A model generated the notes under the pieces. The model was not told the origin of the DNA and did no database searches. It worked only from the letters and a program-made list of their open reading frames with translations. Source: Candidatus Niyogiibacteriota bacterium (lineage in GTDB: Bacteria > Patescibacteriota > Minisyncoccia > JACROR01). From it: 38,536 bases of DNA. Positions within the stretch are counted from its first letter, which is position 1. Every line of letters begins with the position of its first letter. Below, piece after piece: positions 950-30,150 of the stretch. The stretch lies in contig JACROR010000029.1 in the NCBI GenBank assembly GCA_016214345.1, forward strand, positions 1 through 38,536. The letters run 5' to 3'. The position numbers were made by a program, and so were the translations under genes.

Positions 950-2722
950 TTACACTTCAATCATTACCGATAGAACCATGGGCCGCTTTTCGGTTTTGGT
1001 GAATAAATACTGGCCTAATCGCTCTTTTAGGGTGTCTTTGACGTATTCCCAGTTAACGGGATGCATGTTGGCGGTGGTCTCTTCTATGATTTTGAGCGTT
1101 AATTGTCTGGCTTCATACAAGAGCTGTTTGGATTCACGAAGATATATGAATCCGCGTGAAATTATATCCGGAGATCCTTTGACTTTGCCCGTGGTGCTAT
1201 CTACCGCGGCGATCACCACGAAAATGCCGTCTTCCGCGAGCGCTTGCCGGTCGCGGAGCACCACCTCTTGCATGTCGCCCACGCCCAAGCCGTCCACCAT
1301 GACATAATTGGCGGGGACGCGCTCTTTGGTAAGTTTTACTTCCGTTTTGTAGGCCTCCACCACTTGTCCGTTATCTGCGAAAATAAGCTGATTGTCTTTC
1401 ATGCCGGTTTGTTTGGCGATTTTTCCGTGGATTTTGAGAAACGCGTGATTGCCTTCAATGGGCATTAAGTACCGCGGCCTTGTAAGATTTATCATCAATT
1501 TCAGATCTTCTTGTTTGGCGTGGCCTCCGGCGTGAATGTCCAACATTTTGTAATTTATGACCTCGGCTCCGTCACGGTAAAGTTTGTCCGTCAAATGCTG
1601 GACTGAGCGTTCATTGCCGGGAATCACCGATGAAGAAAACACCACCGTGTCGCTCGGCTGAATGCGAAGATATTTGTGCCGTTTGTCCACTATGCGCATT
1701 AAGACGGCGTTATCTTCGCCTTGCGCGCCTGTGGCCAAAATTATTACTTTGTGCGGAGGGTAATTGGGCGCTTCTTGCACGGGAATGATGGTTTTCTTGT
1801 TGAATTTCATGTAGCCCAGGCGTACGGCTATTTCAATGTTGGTTTTCATGGAATATCCTTCAATGACTACTTTCTTTTTGTGTTTTTCCGCCAGTTGTAT
1901 GATCTCGTTCAAGCGTCCGAGCAGCGACGCGAAGGTGCCGAAGATAAGGCGGCCTTTAGCGTCTTTTACGATGGTTTCTATTTCCACGGTGATGTCTTTT
2001 TCGGAAAACTGGCTGCCTGCTTCGCGGGCATTGGTGCTGTCCGACATCAAGAGAAGAACATTTCTTTTTCCCAGAGTTTTTATTTTTTCTATGTCGGTTT
2101 TACCGGCGATGTCGGACTTAAGGTCCAGCTTGAAATCTCCGGTATGGACTATGATCCCGACCGGCGTGGTGACAATGACTCCCACGGATGCCGGTATGTT
2201 GTGAGAGATCCCGTAAAATTCCAGTTGAAACGGACCAAGTTTTATTTTGCTTTTATTGTCTACTTCTTTGAGATTAAGGGGCGCTCCCGGGCTGTTGTCG
2301 TCTTGGCGTTTTTTGATTATAGCCAGAGTCAAATCCGTGCCGAAGAGCGGAATGTTCCTTCCCAGTCTGGGCATAAGATGCGGAATGCCGCCTATGTGGT
2401 CATAGTGCGCGTGCGTTATGATCACTCCTTTTATTTTGTGGCGCTTGGGTATGAGAGAGGCCACGTTGGGAATTATATAGTCAATTCCCGGCATGTTGTC
2501 TTCGGGGAATTGAAGCCCCATGTCAATTATTATGATGTCGCCGTGGTAGGAAGAGCCCGGTTCGTAGTATTCCAGATACATCATGTTTCTGCCCACTTCT
2601 TCCAGGCCGCCCAAGGGTACTACGCGCACATGCTTGTCTTTGCGCGTATTTGGAGCGTTGTAAAAACGGACTGGGTTTTGGCGCCTGACCGGAGAGTCGG
2701 CGCGTCCTCTGTTTGTTATCAT
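950..2722 (-). CDS. rnj: Ribonuclease J family (metallo-beta-lactamase/beta-CASP)
   Basis: VPLGGLEEVGRNM, THAHYDHIGG, HTGDFK, SDSTNA, DIHAGGHA, PIEGNHAFL motifs. Confidence 0.95.
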   Translation of the reverse strand: MITNRGRADSPVRRQNPVRFYNAPNTRKDKHVRVVPLGGLEEVGRNMMYLEYYEPGSSYHGDIIIIDMGLQFPEDNMPGIDYIIPNVASLIPKRHKIKGVIITHAHYDHIGGIPHLMPRLGRNIPLFGTDLTLAIIKKRQDDNSPGAPLNLKEVDNKSKIKLGPFQLEFYGISHNIPASVGVIVTTPVGIIVHTGDFKLDLKSDIAGKTDIEKIKTLGKRNVLLLMSDSTNAREAGSQFSEKDITVEIETIVKDAKGRLIFGTFASLLGRLNEIIQLAEKHKKKVVIEGYSMKTNIEIAVRLGYMKFNKKTIIPVQEAPNYPPHKVIILATGAQGEDNAVLMRIVDKRHKYLRIQPSDTVVFSSSVIPGNERSVQHLTDKLYRDGAEVINYKMLDIHAGGHAKQEDLKLMINLTRPRYLMPIEGNHAFLKIHGKIAKQTGMKDNQLIFADNGQVVEAYKTEVKLTKERVPANYVMVDGLGVGDMQEVVLRDRQALAEDGIFVVIAAVDSTTGKVKGSPDIISRGFIYLRESKQLLYEARQLTLKIIEETTANMHPVNWEYVKDTLKERLGQYLFTKTEKRPMVLSVMIEV

Positions 2723-2765: not shown

Positions 2766-2858
2766 GTGTCGGAGGGGGGATTTGCCCGCCCAGGGCGGGT
2801 CCGCCCTGGGCGGAAACCCTTAAGCCTTGCGGTCACTAGCTCCCTTGTCCCGTTAGAA
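2766..2858 (-). pseudogene. tRNA-Leu-like 3' half interrupted by a GC palindrome
   Basis: Minus strand GGGAGCTAGTGACCGCAAGGCTTAAGGGTTT-[CCGCCCAGGGCGGacCCGCCCTGGGCGG]-GCAAATCCCCCCTCCGACA; matches the 3' part of the intact tRNA-Leu at 2862-2946. Confidence 0.7.
2786..2813. repeat. GC palindrome CCGCCCAGGGCGG-gt-CCGCCCTGGGCGG
   Basis: Perfect 13-nt arms with a 2-nt centre. Confidence 0.85.
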
Positions 2859-2861
2859 ATG

Positions 2862-2946
2862 TGTCGGAGGGGGGATTTGAACCCCCATGACCTTGCGGTC
2901 ACTAGCTCCTGAAGCTAGCGCGTCTGCCGATTCCGCCACTCCGACA
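2862..2946 (-). tRNA. tRNA-Leu (anticodon CAG)
   Basis: Minus strand TGTCGGAGTGGCGGAATCGGCAGACGCGCTAGCTTCAGGAGCTAGTGACCGCAAGGTCATGGGGGTTCAAATCCCCCCTCCGACA; loop TTCAGGA, long variable arm, T-arm and acceptor pair. Confidence 0.93.
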
Positions 2947-2950
2947 TATT

Positions 2951-3015
2951 TCTAATGGGATGAACTAGCGCGCCTGCCTGCCGGTAGGCAGGTCTGCTAA
3001 TTTCACCACCTGTCC
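2951..3015 (-). pseudogene. tRNA-Leu-like 5' half interrupted by a GC palindrome
   Basis: Minus strand GGACAGGTGGTGAAATTAGCAGAC-[ctgcctaccggcaggcagg]-CGCGCTAGTTCA; resembles the D-arm and 5' anticodon stem of tRNA-Leu. Confidence 0.65.
2973..2992. repeat. Short palindrome CCTGCCTGCCGGTAGGCAGG
   Basis: Self-complementary; related copies at 16.2, 24.5, 24.7 and 25.1 kb. Confidence 0.75.
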
Positions 3016-3016
3016 T

Positions 3017-4771
3017 TCATTTCAGCAGAAATTTCCATACTTTTTTGGTGTCTATGTACCACTGATTTACTTTCGCGAATCTTTCGGACGATGCTGTGAT
3101 GTGCGTTGTATCGTTACCTTTGAGGTAGTTTGGCGTGGCATATAGATAGTATGGAGAGTAGAGGAATATGGCCGGGATGTCTTCCAGTATTTCTTTTTGG
3201 AATGCTTCATATTTCTGCGCTTGTTTTTTGGGGTCGGATGTGGCGCGAGCGTCTTCCAGCAGGCGATCCACCGCAATATTGGCGTAAAGCGCGATATTCA
3301 ATCCCGGATCATTGCGTTGCGAAGAATGCCAAAAAGCGAAAGGGTCGGGATCGTAGCCCGCGACTTCTCCGAAGAGCAGCGCGTCGTAATCCCTGGGCCT
3401 TATGATATTTTTGTCAAAATCTCCTATGTCAAAAGTTTTAACTTCCGTTTTGATTCCAATGGCTTCCCACATGCTCTTTAACATTTCCGCCGTTGCCACC
3501 AAGTCGGGCGTCATGGAGGTGGAGAGTGTTATGGCAAGCTCCGTCGTGACCTTTTTATTGGTTTTTTCAAAAAAGCCGGATGAATTTTGTTTCCATCCCG
3601 ATTTTTCCAGAAGTTTTTTGGCCGCTTCCGGATCGTAAGTTTTTTCCTCGGTGGCGCCGGTATTCATGGAACCGAAAGTCCCCGGAGGAATGGGGTAGGA
3701 AATAATCGTTCCGTAGCCGTCCAGAATTTCGTTTACTATTTTTTCTTTATCGGTGGCCAGAAGCAGGGCTTTTCTTACGGAATAGTCGGCCAGCGTTTTA
3801 TTTTTATTTTGATTGAAAAATACGCCGAATATGCGGGACAGGGTCATGGTTCGCACGCCGCTTCCGCGGCGCAGCGCTTCAGTTACGTTCTTGGGCGATA
3901 TGGACCCCATGCTTTTAATGTTGTTGTTCAGGTAATTTGCCAATAGTTCCGACTCGGATTTATAAAAGTTAAGAACCATATTGGTTATGTACGGCTTGCC
4001 CAGAGCATAATCGTTAAATGATTCCAGCGCGTACGAGTTTATTATGCCGGAAGAATTTCTATAGATTTTTTTTATGCGATAAGGTCCCGCGCCTACCGGC
4101 TCAATGTTAAACTGACTCAGGCTTATTTGGTCCGGAGTGATATCCTCCCAAATATGTTTGGGCAATATTTGCAACGTGGCATTTTCCAAAAATGGGGTAT
4201 AGGGCTTTTTTAAAATGAATTTGATGACGCGCGGATCTTGGACTTCTACTTCCACGCCTTCCCAGTTGGCTCTTTTTGGGCTTTTGATGAGCGGCGTTTT
4301 AGCGGCCTTTATGGTAAAGGCCACATCTTCCGTGGTGATCGGTTGTCCGTCATGCCAAACCAGACCGTTTTTCAAAGTAAATGTGTAGGTAAGGCCATTC
4401 GGGCTTATGGCGTAACTTTCCGCCAATTCCGGCACTAACCTTCCTTGTCCGTCTGATTTCAGAAGTCCGGCATATATTAGTTGATCAATATCTTGATCCG
4501 CATCCGATATGGCTATTAGAGGATTCAAGAAGCGCGGCGTTCCCACGATTCCTTCATATATAGCGCCTCCGGGATAGGGCACTTCTACCGCCATTTTATT
4601 ATTCAAAATAAACAGCGCGCCCAGGACAGATACGACGAATACGCACACTAAAAGCAGAAAGGTTATTTTTTCTTTCGGCTTCAACGTGTGGATAATAATT
4701 TTAATTTCATTCAAGGACGGCAGATCCACGCGCTTTTTTAATGATGAGAATATTTCTTTTACGTTTAACAC
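3017..4771 (-). CDS. Oligopeptide/nickel-type ABC transporter substrate-binding protein (SBP_bac_5-like)
   Basis: N-terminal TM segment; VPELAESYAISPNGLTYTFTLKNGLVWHDGQPITTEDVAFTI; GTG start. Confidence 0.9.
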   Translation of the reverse strand: MLNVKEIFSSLKKRVDLPSLNEIKIIIHTLKPKEKITFLLLVCVFVVSVLGALFILNNKMAVEVPYPGGAIYEGIVGTPRFLNPLIAISDADQDIDQLIYAGLLKSDGQGRLVPELAESYAISPNGLTYTFTLKNGLVWHDGQPITTEDVAFTIKAAKTPLIKSPKRANWEGVEVEVQDPRVIKFILKKPYTPFLENATLQILPKHIWEDITPDQISLSQFNIEPVGAGPYRIKKIYRNSSGIINSYALESFNDYALGKPYITNMVLNFYKSESELLANYLNNNIKSMGSISPKNVTEALRRGSGVRTMTLSRIFGVFFNQNKNKTLADYSVRKALLLATDKEKIVNEILDGYGTIISYPIPPGTFGSMNTGATEEKTYDPEAAKKLLEKSGWKQNSSGFFEKTNKKVTTELAITLSTSMTPDLVATAEMLKSMWEAIGIKTEVKTFDIGDFDKNIIRPRDYDALLFGEVAGYDPDPFAFWHSSQRNDPGLNIALYANIAVDRLLEDARATSDPKKQAQKYEAFQKEILEDIPAIFLYSPYYLYATPNYLKGNDTTHITASSERFAKVNQWYIDTKKVWKFLLK

Positions 4772-21413: not shown

Positions 21414-21506
21414 GAGTATCAAGGTACATGATTGCAACCGACTTGTCCAAAATTTTGAATATTTATGATAAAATTTTGGTAACAAGTCGCAGTCCCGCAT
21501 CAAAGC

Positions 21507-21593
21507 GGTGGGGTGTCTGAGTGGTTTAAGGAGCTTGCTTGGAGAGCAAGTGTACGAGAAATCGTACCGCGAGTTCAAATCTCGCCCCCACCG
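21507..21593 (+). tRNA. tRNA-Ser (anticodon GGA)
   Basis: GGTGGGGTGTCTGAGTGG...CTTGC-TTGGAGA-GCAAG...long variable arm...GAGTTCAAATCTC...CCCCACC. Confidence 0.94.
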
Positions 21594-21716
21594 CTTTGAT
21601 GCGGGAGAGGATGGTTTATTGCCACAAGTCCTTGACACCATAGTTTAAATGTGTTATGTCTAAAATAGTTTAAATAGTACATTGCCAAATAAAAAGAAAG
21701 AAAGAGGGGTGGCGCG

Positions 21717-23179: not shown

Positions 23180-25006
23180 ATGTCATCTTCCGTAGAACAA
23201 ATAAAATCTCGTTTGGATTTGGTGGATGTTATTCAGTCTTACATCAAAGTTCATAGGGCGGGCGCCAATTTTAAGGCGAACTGCCCTTTTCATAATGAAA
23301 AAACTCCGTCTTTTTTTATCTCTCCGGCGCGGGAAATTTGGCACTGTTTCGGGTGCGGCAAAGGGGGTGATCTCATCAAATTCGTTATGGAAATTGAAGG
23401 CGCGGAGTTTCCGGAGGCGCTCCGCATTTTGGCCAATCGCGCGGGCATAGTGCTGGAAACGGAAGACCCTCGGGCGCGCGACGAGCGGACGCGCGCGTTT
23501 GAATTGTTGGAAGACGCTACGGCTTTTTTTGAGGTGGAGTCCGCGAGACATCCCGAAATCGCCAAGTATTTGTCGGAGAGGGGGTTGGCCGCCGGCACGA
23601 TAAAAGATTTTCGCATTGGGTACGCTCCCGCGAGTTGGGACGGCACTCTTCTTTTTTTGAAGAATAAAGGGTACGCGGATGCCGAAATTGAGCGCGCGGG
23701 GCTTGCCATAAAGTCCAGTAAAAATGAATCCGGATATTATGATCGTTTTCGCGGACGCGTTATGTTTCCGATCTCCGATTCTACCGGGCGCGTGGTAGGA
23801 TTTTCCGGAAGAATATTTTCTCCAGTGGCGAAACAAGGAGGCGAAGAAGAGGCGAAATATATCAATTCTCCGCAAACGCTTTTGTACGACAAATCAAAGA
23901 TCCTGTACGGATTTGACCGCGCCAAAGTGGAGATAAGAAAAGAAAATACCTGTATTTTGGTGGAGGGGCAAATGGACGCGGTGATGTCCCATCAGGCGGG
24001 GATAAAAAACGCGGTGGCGGTTTCAGGAACCGCGCTGACCAATTATCAGCTGACCATGATAAAGCGTCTGGCGGATAATTTGATAACCGCGTTTGATATG
24101 GATGTTGCCGGAGGATTGGCAACCAAGCGGGGGATTGATTTGGCGTTGGGAGAGGGCTTTGAGGTGAAAGTGGCCGTAATAAGCGGCGGCAAGGATCCGG
24201 CAGATTTGGTGAAAGAAGACGCGGCATTGTGGCAAAAATCCGTGGCAAGCGCGCGGCATATTTTAGATTTTTATCTTGATATGCTCTACATTAAATATAA
24301 AAATGACGCGCGTGAAATGCGCAAAAAAACCGGCGAGCTGGTTTTGCCTTATATCGCGGGGATTCAAAGTGAAATTGACAAGGCGCATTGGGTGGGCGAA
24401 GTGGCCAAGCGGCTTAATTTGTCGGAACAGCCAATTTGGGATGAAGTGAAGAAATATAAAAATAATAATTTTGAAAAACCTTTTGCGTCGCAGGCCATGC
24501 CTGCCGGCAGGCAGGCGGGAGTGAAAGAATCCGAAAAAACCCGCAAACATCTTTTGGAAGAAAAAATTTTAGGGCTTGCCGTGTGGAATAATGCTCTGAT
24601 CGTCAAAGCCATGGAAGGAAGGGATGATCGGGTATTTTCCGACGCGGCAAAACCGCTTATCGTAAAAGTTATGGCAGGCCTGCCTGCCGTGGCAGGAGAC
24701 GGCATTGACCCTGTTAAATCCCCGCACGGCGGGAGCGCTGAAAGCGCATTTAACAGGGTTGACATGGGCGAACACAAAGATTATCTTGATCGTTTGGCGT
24801 TGGAGGCCGAATTATTTTACGCCAACACGGACAAAGATCTGGCCATGGAAGCAAGCGAGCTTATAGACGGACTGGAAAGAGAGCATGTCAAAGAAAGGCT
24901 GGTTTCACTCGCGGGGCGTATTAGGGAAGCGGAATCGAACAGGGACAATAAAATGTTGGACGCGCTGGCCATGGAATTCGGCGAGCTTTCTAAAAAATTG
25001 ATATAA
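23180..25006 (+). CDS. dnaG: DNA primase DnaG
   Basis: [30 protein letters not shown] zinc motif; [22 protein letters not shown]. Confidence 0.97.
24499..24512. repeat. In-frame palindrome GCCTGCCGGCAGGC in dnaG
   Basis: Encodes MPAGRQAG in a linker. Confidence 0.75.
24679..24696. repeat. In-frame palindrome CCTGCCTGCCGTGGCAGG in dnaG
   Basis: Encodes GLPAVAG. Confidence 0.7.
24709..24758. repeat. In-frame three-helix-junction palindromic element (copy 2)
   Basis: CCCTGTTAAAT-CCCCGCacgGCGGG-AGCGCtgaaaGCGC-ATTTAACAGGG. Confidence 0.85.
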
Positions 25007-30116: not shown

Positions 30117-30150
30117 TCCCGCACCTTTTTATATAAAAAGGTGCGGGATT
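30117..30150. terminator. Bidirectional terminator
   Basis: ATCCCGCACCTTTTTATATAAAAAGGTGCGGGAT. Confidence 0.85.

Follow-up and report, generated by a model that had tools for sequence, protein, structure and literature searches.

How an intact tRNA gene comes to lie inside another tRNA gene of the same kind is the question raised by a short locus of Candidatus Niyogiibacteriota bacterium (Patescibacteriota; Minisyncoccia; GenBank assembly GCA_016214345.1). The locus belongs to contig JACROR010000029.1, of which positions 1 to 38,536 were analysed (the 38,536-nt stretch referred to here as the window), and it consists of a complete tRNA-Leu(CAG) gene in the anticodon loop of a second tRNA-Leu, whose D-loop and T-loop each hold a palindrome. 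We consider it probable that palindrome-bounded cassettes, some of them with a whole tRNA as cargo, enter the loops of tRNA genes, and that the cargo then takes over while the host tRNA decays.

The nested unit is 252 nt long (3015-2764, minus strand), and a direct reading recovers every part listed in the first-pass annotation, which had described an intact tRNA-Leu(CAG) between tRNA-Leu halves, with one palindrome at the D-arm and another at the T-loop, and had found the halves to look like one tRNA-Leu cut near the anticodon loop. Read along the minus strand, the unit begins with the 5' part of the outer tRNA-Leu (2993-3015), which was aligned to tRNA-Leu positions and comprises the 5' strand of the acceptor (GGACAGG) and the D-arm as far as GCAGA. 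The 3' end of the outer D-loop (GCAGA/CGCG) is the site of palindrome 1, CCTGCCTACCGGCAGGCAGG (20 bp; 2973-2992), which is followed by the 3' strand of the outer D-stem, the 5' strand of the anticodon stem and the loop as far as TTCA, CGCGCTAGTTCA (2961-2972). The tRNA cargo is located in the anticodon-loop insert (TTCA/GGA), where it is flanked by the arms of an inverted repeat, TCCCATTAGAAAT on the left (2948-2960) and ATTTCTAACGGGA on the right (2848-2860), each of 13 nt and complementary to the other at 12/13 positions (2948-2960 with 2860-2848), with a single A.C mismatch. The inner tRNA-Leu(CAG) between them (2861-2945, its 3' limit at 2861/2) scores 122.9 in ARAGORN and 57 bits with Rfam. 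Beyond the right arm lies a CAAG tail (2844-2847) that is seen again behind tRNA-carrying inserts of other genomes, and then the remainder of the outer anticodon loop, the 3' strand of its stem, the variable arm and the 5' strand of the T-stem (2815-2843). A hairpin of 30 nt, palindrome 2, TCCGCCCAGGGCGGACCCGCCCTGGGCGGG (2785-2814), interrupts the outer T-loop (GGGTT/CAAAT), and the outer 3' end with its CCA closes the unit (2764-2784). The outer gene holds three inserts, one per loop (D-loop end, anticodon loop and T-loop), and their excision leaves the junctions GCAGA-CGCG, TTCA-GGA and GGGTT-CAAATCC, as in an ordinary leucine tRNA at the end of the D-loop, in the anticodon loop and in the T-loop; the picture of a single tRNA-Leu with a complete tRNA inside it is borne out. 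The outer anticodon arm recovered in this way is 1 nucleotide shorter than that of the inner gene.

The same annotation had taken the outer gene for a probable relic with unpaired acceptor ends, and we agree on both counts for the source genome: GGACAGG is opposed by CTCCGAC, and ARAGORN calls no tRNA from the outer sequence even with all three inserts removed. The outer 3' half shares with the inner tRNA two 19-nt stretches, each 100% identical, and the terminal segment at 2764-2784, which has 19 nt in common with the inner gene, does not pair with the outer 5' end. All five leucine isoacceptors are present without counting the outer gene, which rules out that it is needed for a missing isoacceptor. 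By the tRNA inventory the inner gene is the only CAG-decoding leucine tRNA found in the source genome, and both inventoried genomes have one tRNA per leucine isoacceptor. An Rfam search of the locus returned nothing but tRNA above threshold, and no group I or group II intron or other known RNA family.

The unit fills the gap between the stop codon of a gene for a solute-binding protein (SBP_bac_5 by Pfam; 3017-4771, minus strand), which ends 1 nt short of the outer tRNA, and the start codon of a ribonuclease J (RNase J) gene downstream (Pfam RNase_J domains; 950-2722, minus strand). RNase J, found in 56 of 57 relatives, served as the anchor for comparison of the locus among genomes. The sole same-family relative compared, G001, belongs to a different genus (its RNase J is 79% identical) and has the same layout at the orthologous place, namely GCTGGGATGGCGG...CGCGCTAGTTCA, TCCCGTTAGAAGT, tRNA-Leu(CAG), TTCTAACGGGA and CAAGGGAGCTAG...CTCCCAGCA, with the same left arm as in the source genome. 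Because G001 has the same nesting at the same place, the insertion is most likely older than the split of the two genera, and an assembly error is unlikely. The outer tRNA of G001 is paired throughout (acceptor 7/7, and all stems); its halves give a tRNA with an 8-nt anticodon loop after excision, and the minimum-energy fold of the unit is predicted to be an outer cloverleaf in which the inverted repeat lengthens the anticodon arm and the inner tRNA forms its cap. The inner and outer tRNAs of G001 differ in acceptor, variable arm and T-stem alike. A further suggestion, that the outer halves come from two tRNAs, is partly right: judged by the two identical 19-nt blocks, the inner gene seems to have overwritten the outer 3' half in the source genome. 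The outer halves of G001 pair 7/7. Most relatives carry a plain, un-nested tRNA at the RNase J locus. In most class relatives examined (L003-L020), no more than about 1.3 kb separates tRNA-Leu(CAG) from RNase J.

Among 42 tRNAs sampled in the source genome, 5 are directly bracketed on both sides by inverted repeats whose net score is 10 or higher, as against 0 of 1722 controls made of mismatched flank pairs, and the same test in G001 gave 5/24 tRNAs versus 0.3 expected. The identity of the genes around such tRNAs was assessed by scoring the outer flanks of 29 inverted-repeat-flanked tRNAs against tRNA panels, with cases from the source genome and from G001 each scored against the tRNAs of the other genome and those from the remaining genomes against both. 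Where the best score was at least 60, the best match of the outer gene was to the amino acid of the inner one in 18/20 cases. A neighbouring tRNA confounds one of these 18 (L087) and one of the two exceptions (L035), and in the other exception, tRNA-Thr at L073, the outer flanks match their own inner gene well. Wherever the outer anticodon is legible it is the same as the inner, as with Leu(GAG) in G367 and with Arg(CCG) in the source genome. Automatic excision of arm, tRNA, arm and a short tail yielded an ARAGORN tRNA in 7 of the 29 cases (0/87 shuffled controls), the inner anticodon not being kept in all seven products.

The nesting is a recurrent pattern and the palindromes are dispersed families, neither of which had been part of the first description of the locus. 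A search for D-arm patterns over 387 class genomes, with inspection of the loci, revealed about 20 further class genomes with leucine tRNAs that are nested or split by hairpins, a count that is no measure of frequency, the patterns being biased to Leu-type D-arms and many of the pattern matches being due to chance. The motif also turned up in other classes when the phylum was searched. The arrangements include a doubly nested locus in G221 (a tRNA inside a tRNA inside a tRNA), single outer genes with hairpins in two or three loops (G284, G208 and G367) and a complete tRNA inside the T-loop of another tRNA (G200). A palindrome occupies the same tRNA position as palindrome 1 at L164, in another genome, and T-loop hairpins are also present at L147, L148 and L150. 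Nesting is not confined to leucine: the source genome has further nested tRNA-Gln, tRNA-Tyr, tRNA-Arg(TCT) and tRNA-Arg(CCG), and G001 has nested tRNA-Val, tRNA-Ala, tRNA-Thr and tRNA-Pro. A nesting pattern for class I tRNAs gave few matches, probably since it demanded an uninterrupted D-arm of one type. The outer genes range over all states, from fully paired to half lost. In three genomes (L137, L158 and L220) an inverted-repeat stem bearing the inner tRNA replaces the whole outer anticodon arm, and the other arms are largely kept.

The arms conform to the consensus YCCCGTTAGAA...TTCTAACGGGR, and in G001 they exist also as dispersed inverted pairs at tRNA-free sites, around interiors that vary among copies and measure 7 to about 100 nt. 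At the loci examined, exact 4-nt direct repeats (TTTA, TGAA, TTGA, TAAA and TTCA) flank 18 of 33 such tRNA-free pairs (4.4 expected; maximum of 11 among 5000 shuffles) and look like target-site duplications. In copies with tRNA cargo the arms are repeatedly preceded by TTCA and followed by CAAG, which read TGAA and CTTG on the opposite strand, and this is so at different tRNAs. In 375 kb of the source genome, about 17 copies of palindrome 1 are scattered, and palindromes related to palindrome 2 are found at about 8 places, the underlying listing giving each copy on both strands.

Several other inserts and repeats were noted in the source genome. Within the window, an in-frame copy of palindrome 1 (24496-24515) lies inside a DnaG-like gene (23180-25006, plus strand), to whose product it adds residues such as PAGRQAG; a tRNA-Ser(GGA) (21507-21594, plus strand) has on its flanks a perfect 12-bp inverted repeat, TCCCGCATCAAA/TTTGATGCGGGA (21493-21606), with no recognisable outer tRNA; and a perfect 15-bp palindrome, CCCGCACCTTTTTAT and its complement, stands between two genes at 30118-30147. 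Many tRNAs have a second copy of their last 17-20 nt some 100-200 nt downstream, and the interval contains an inverted copy of the T-arm and more hairpins, as at L174:2867, L165:9223 and L172:18885 in the source genome and L195:16889 and L195:17257 in G001.

The course of events that we favour would have begun, before the source genome and G001 diverged, with the entry of a cassette, an inverted repeat enclosing tRNA-Leu(CAG), into the anticodon loop of a resident tRNA-Leu. The insertion would have broken the resident gene, yet it might have been tolerated because a cargo tRNA of the same kind kept CAG decoding in the cell; such a rescue fits the two inventoried genomes, since they have one tRNA per leucine isoacceptor and the inner gene is the sole CAG reader. 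Later, in the source lineage, two other palindromes may have entered the D-loop and the T-loop of the disused outer gene, whose 3' half would then have been overwritten by the inner copy through gene conversion, an event that would account for the unpaired outer acceptor. The inner tRNA would now be the working gene and the outer one a displaced relic. Directly observed are the anatomy, the insertion common to both genomes, the recurrence of nesting, the agreement in tRNA identity and the dispersed arm family; transposition of the cassette, selection through rescue, gene conversion and the outer gene's loss of function are inferred. The same process may have affected many tRNA genes in related genomes, where the occurrence of outer genes in all states of decay fits takeover followed by decay. 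More tentatively, and with rather less than even confidence, one may envisage a phylum-wide class of tiny mobile tRNA cassettes, with hairpin ends and a single tRNA gene, that insert into loops of the matching tRNA gene and persist through a cargo that replaces the gene they break, such that tRNAs are repeatedly replaced from within, at times twice at one locus.

A number of observations weigh against this scheme. Perfect pairing, which is not required of a mere relic, is found in several outer tRNAs, and the search patterns favoured leucine tRNAs. Direct repeats of 4 nt flank one of nine tRNA-carrying copies, and a target-site duplication, though clear at the dispersed copies, was not seen at the tRNA insertions. 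No donor copy of the cassette was found outside the tRNA. No transposase could be tied to the arm family: a Y1 transposase is absent from G001 and G284; the source genome has six Y1 (RAYT-like) genes, and two of the three Y1 regions examined there are flanked by different palindromes. The Y1 genes at L175:16287-17028 and L183:12637-13376 of the source genome have palindromes of their own, unlike those in the tRNAs. A parent transposon did not turn up either, no search having been aimed at genes bounded by the arm ends.

One alternative does without any mobile element. Template switching or foldback synthesis at hairpin-forming, single-stranded tRNA genes could have copied a tRNA into its own loop and made the inverted repeats in passing; from such copying the match in identity between inner and outer tRNAs follows naturally, the insertions are located at loop apices, and the downstream duplicates of tRNA ends with their inverted T-arm copies, found at many tRNAs in both genomes, would agree with it too. 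We nevertheless regard this origin as unlikely, in view of the presence of one arm sequence around different tRNAs and also at non-tRNA sites with 4-nt direct repeats, and because the inner tRNA of G001 departs from the outer in acceptor, T-stem and variable arm and so is no recent copy of it. Still less probable is ordinary tandem duplication and decay among unrelated palindromes, or an artefact of metagenome assembly. In their favour, the draft assemblies are fragmented, and the source genome has a degenerate outer gene. But the orthologous locus of another genus shows the same nested junctions, as do many independent genomes, inverted repeats abutting tRNAs greatly exceed the control, and a tandem duplication would not place one copy inside the loop of the other. 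Simple duplication and decay in sister genomes, which the first-pass annotation had named as the result that would refute its reading, was not seen.

A functional role for the outer halves, as a split or intron-containing tRNA-Leu, or as a structured RNA that aids processing of the inner tRNA or controls RNase J, is in our judgement improbable, though less so than duplication or artefact. The perfectly paired outer gene of G001, the cloverleaf fold of its unit, whose tip is the inner tRNA, the paired acceptor stems kept in several other outer genes and the position of tRNA-Leu(CAG) upstream of RNase J in most relatives examined would all agree with it. The outer gene of the source genome, on the other hand, is unpaired and yields no ARAGORN tRNA after excision, no intron family is present at the locus, all leucine isoacceptors exist without the outer gene, and most relatives have a plain tRNA there. 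The RtcB ligase, present in the source genome, was not found in G001, whose outer tRNA is the best preserved, and five other genomes with nesting. A functional split or intron-containing tRNA is disfavoured on these grounds.

If insertion of cassettes followed by takeover is correct, it would represent an unreported route for the replacement of essential single-copy genes, in which the intruder brings its own copy, and tRNA loops would be insertion hot spots for palindromic elements. It would also account for fragmentary tRNA annotations in these reduced genomes, where inner, outer and doubly nested genes would form a layered record of tRNA replacement, and it would serve as a warning that outer genes are overlooked by tRNA finders. 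In the open-access literature searched we found no account of one tRNA gene nested within another, nor of repeats of this kind in the phylum, which does not prove that none exists.

Among known systems, REPINs and bacterial interspersed mosaic elements (BIMEs) are inverted pairs of repetitive extragenic palindromes that are moved by RAYT transposases (PMC3116915). The arm family of G001 is like them in its short inverted pairs, variable spacers, dispersal and predicted hairpins, but differs in having whole tRNA genes as some of its spacers, in its insertion inside tRNA genes and in the 4-nt direct repeats at dispersed copies. The association with RAYT also fails, G001 having no Y1/RAYT gene and the examined RAYT genes of the source genome having other palindromes, and RAYT-driven REPINs are thereby rejected as the sole explanation. 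Miniature inverted-repeat transposable elements (MITEs) share with the arm family the terminal inverted repeats and, at dispersed copies, direct repeats resembling target-site duplications; here, however, the interiors vary by copy, no parent transposon turned up and the tRNA-carrying copies are without direct repeats. The arms behave like the ends of a REPIN or a MITE, and we assign them to neither because the RAYT association fails and no parent transposon was found.

Palindromes are found inside genes also in the case of the Rickettsia palindromic elements. Together with the GTAG/CGTC palindrome families (PMC3733652), these provide a parallel to the in-frame copy in the DnaG gene, but the published descriptions examined contain neither tRNA cargo nor tRNA-in-tRNA nesting. 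Split and intron-containing tRNA genes resemble the present locus in the interruption of the anticodon loop and in the complementary extensions on both halves; here what interrupts the loop is itself a complete tRNA, there is no sign of an intron family or of a way to join the halves, and in the source genome the outer gene is both dispensable and decayed. Genomic islands and phages integrate in tRNA genes and leave the host a working copy. The use of tRNA genes as targets and the retention of a working copy by the host are common to both cases, whereas the unit described here is of about 115 nt, has no integrase and occupies the loops, not the 3' end, and the cassette supplies not a 3' end but a whole tRNA.
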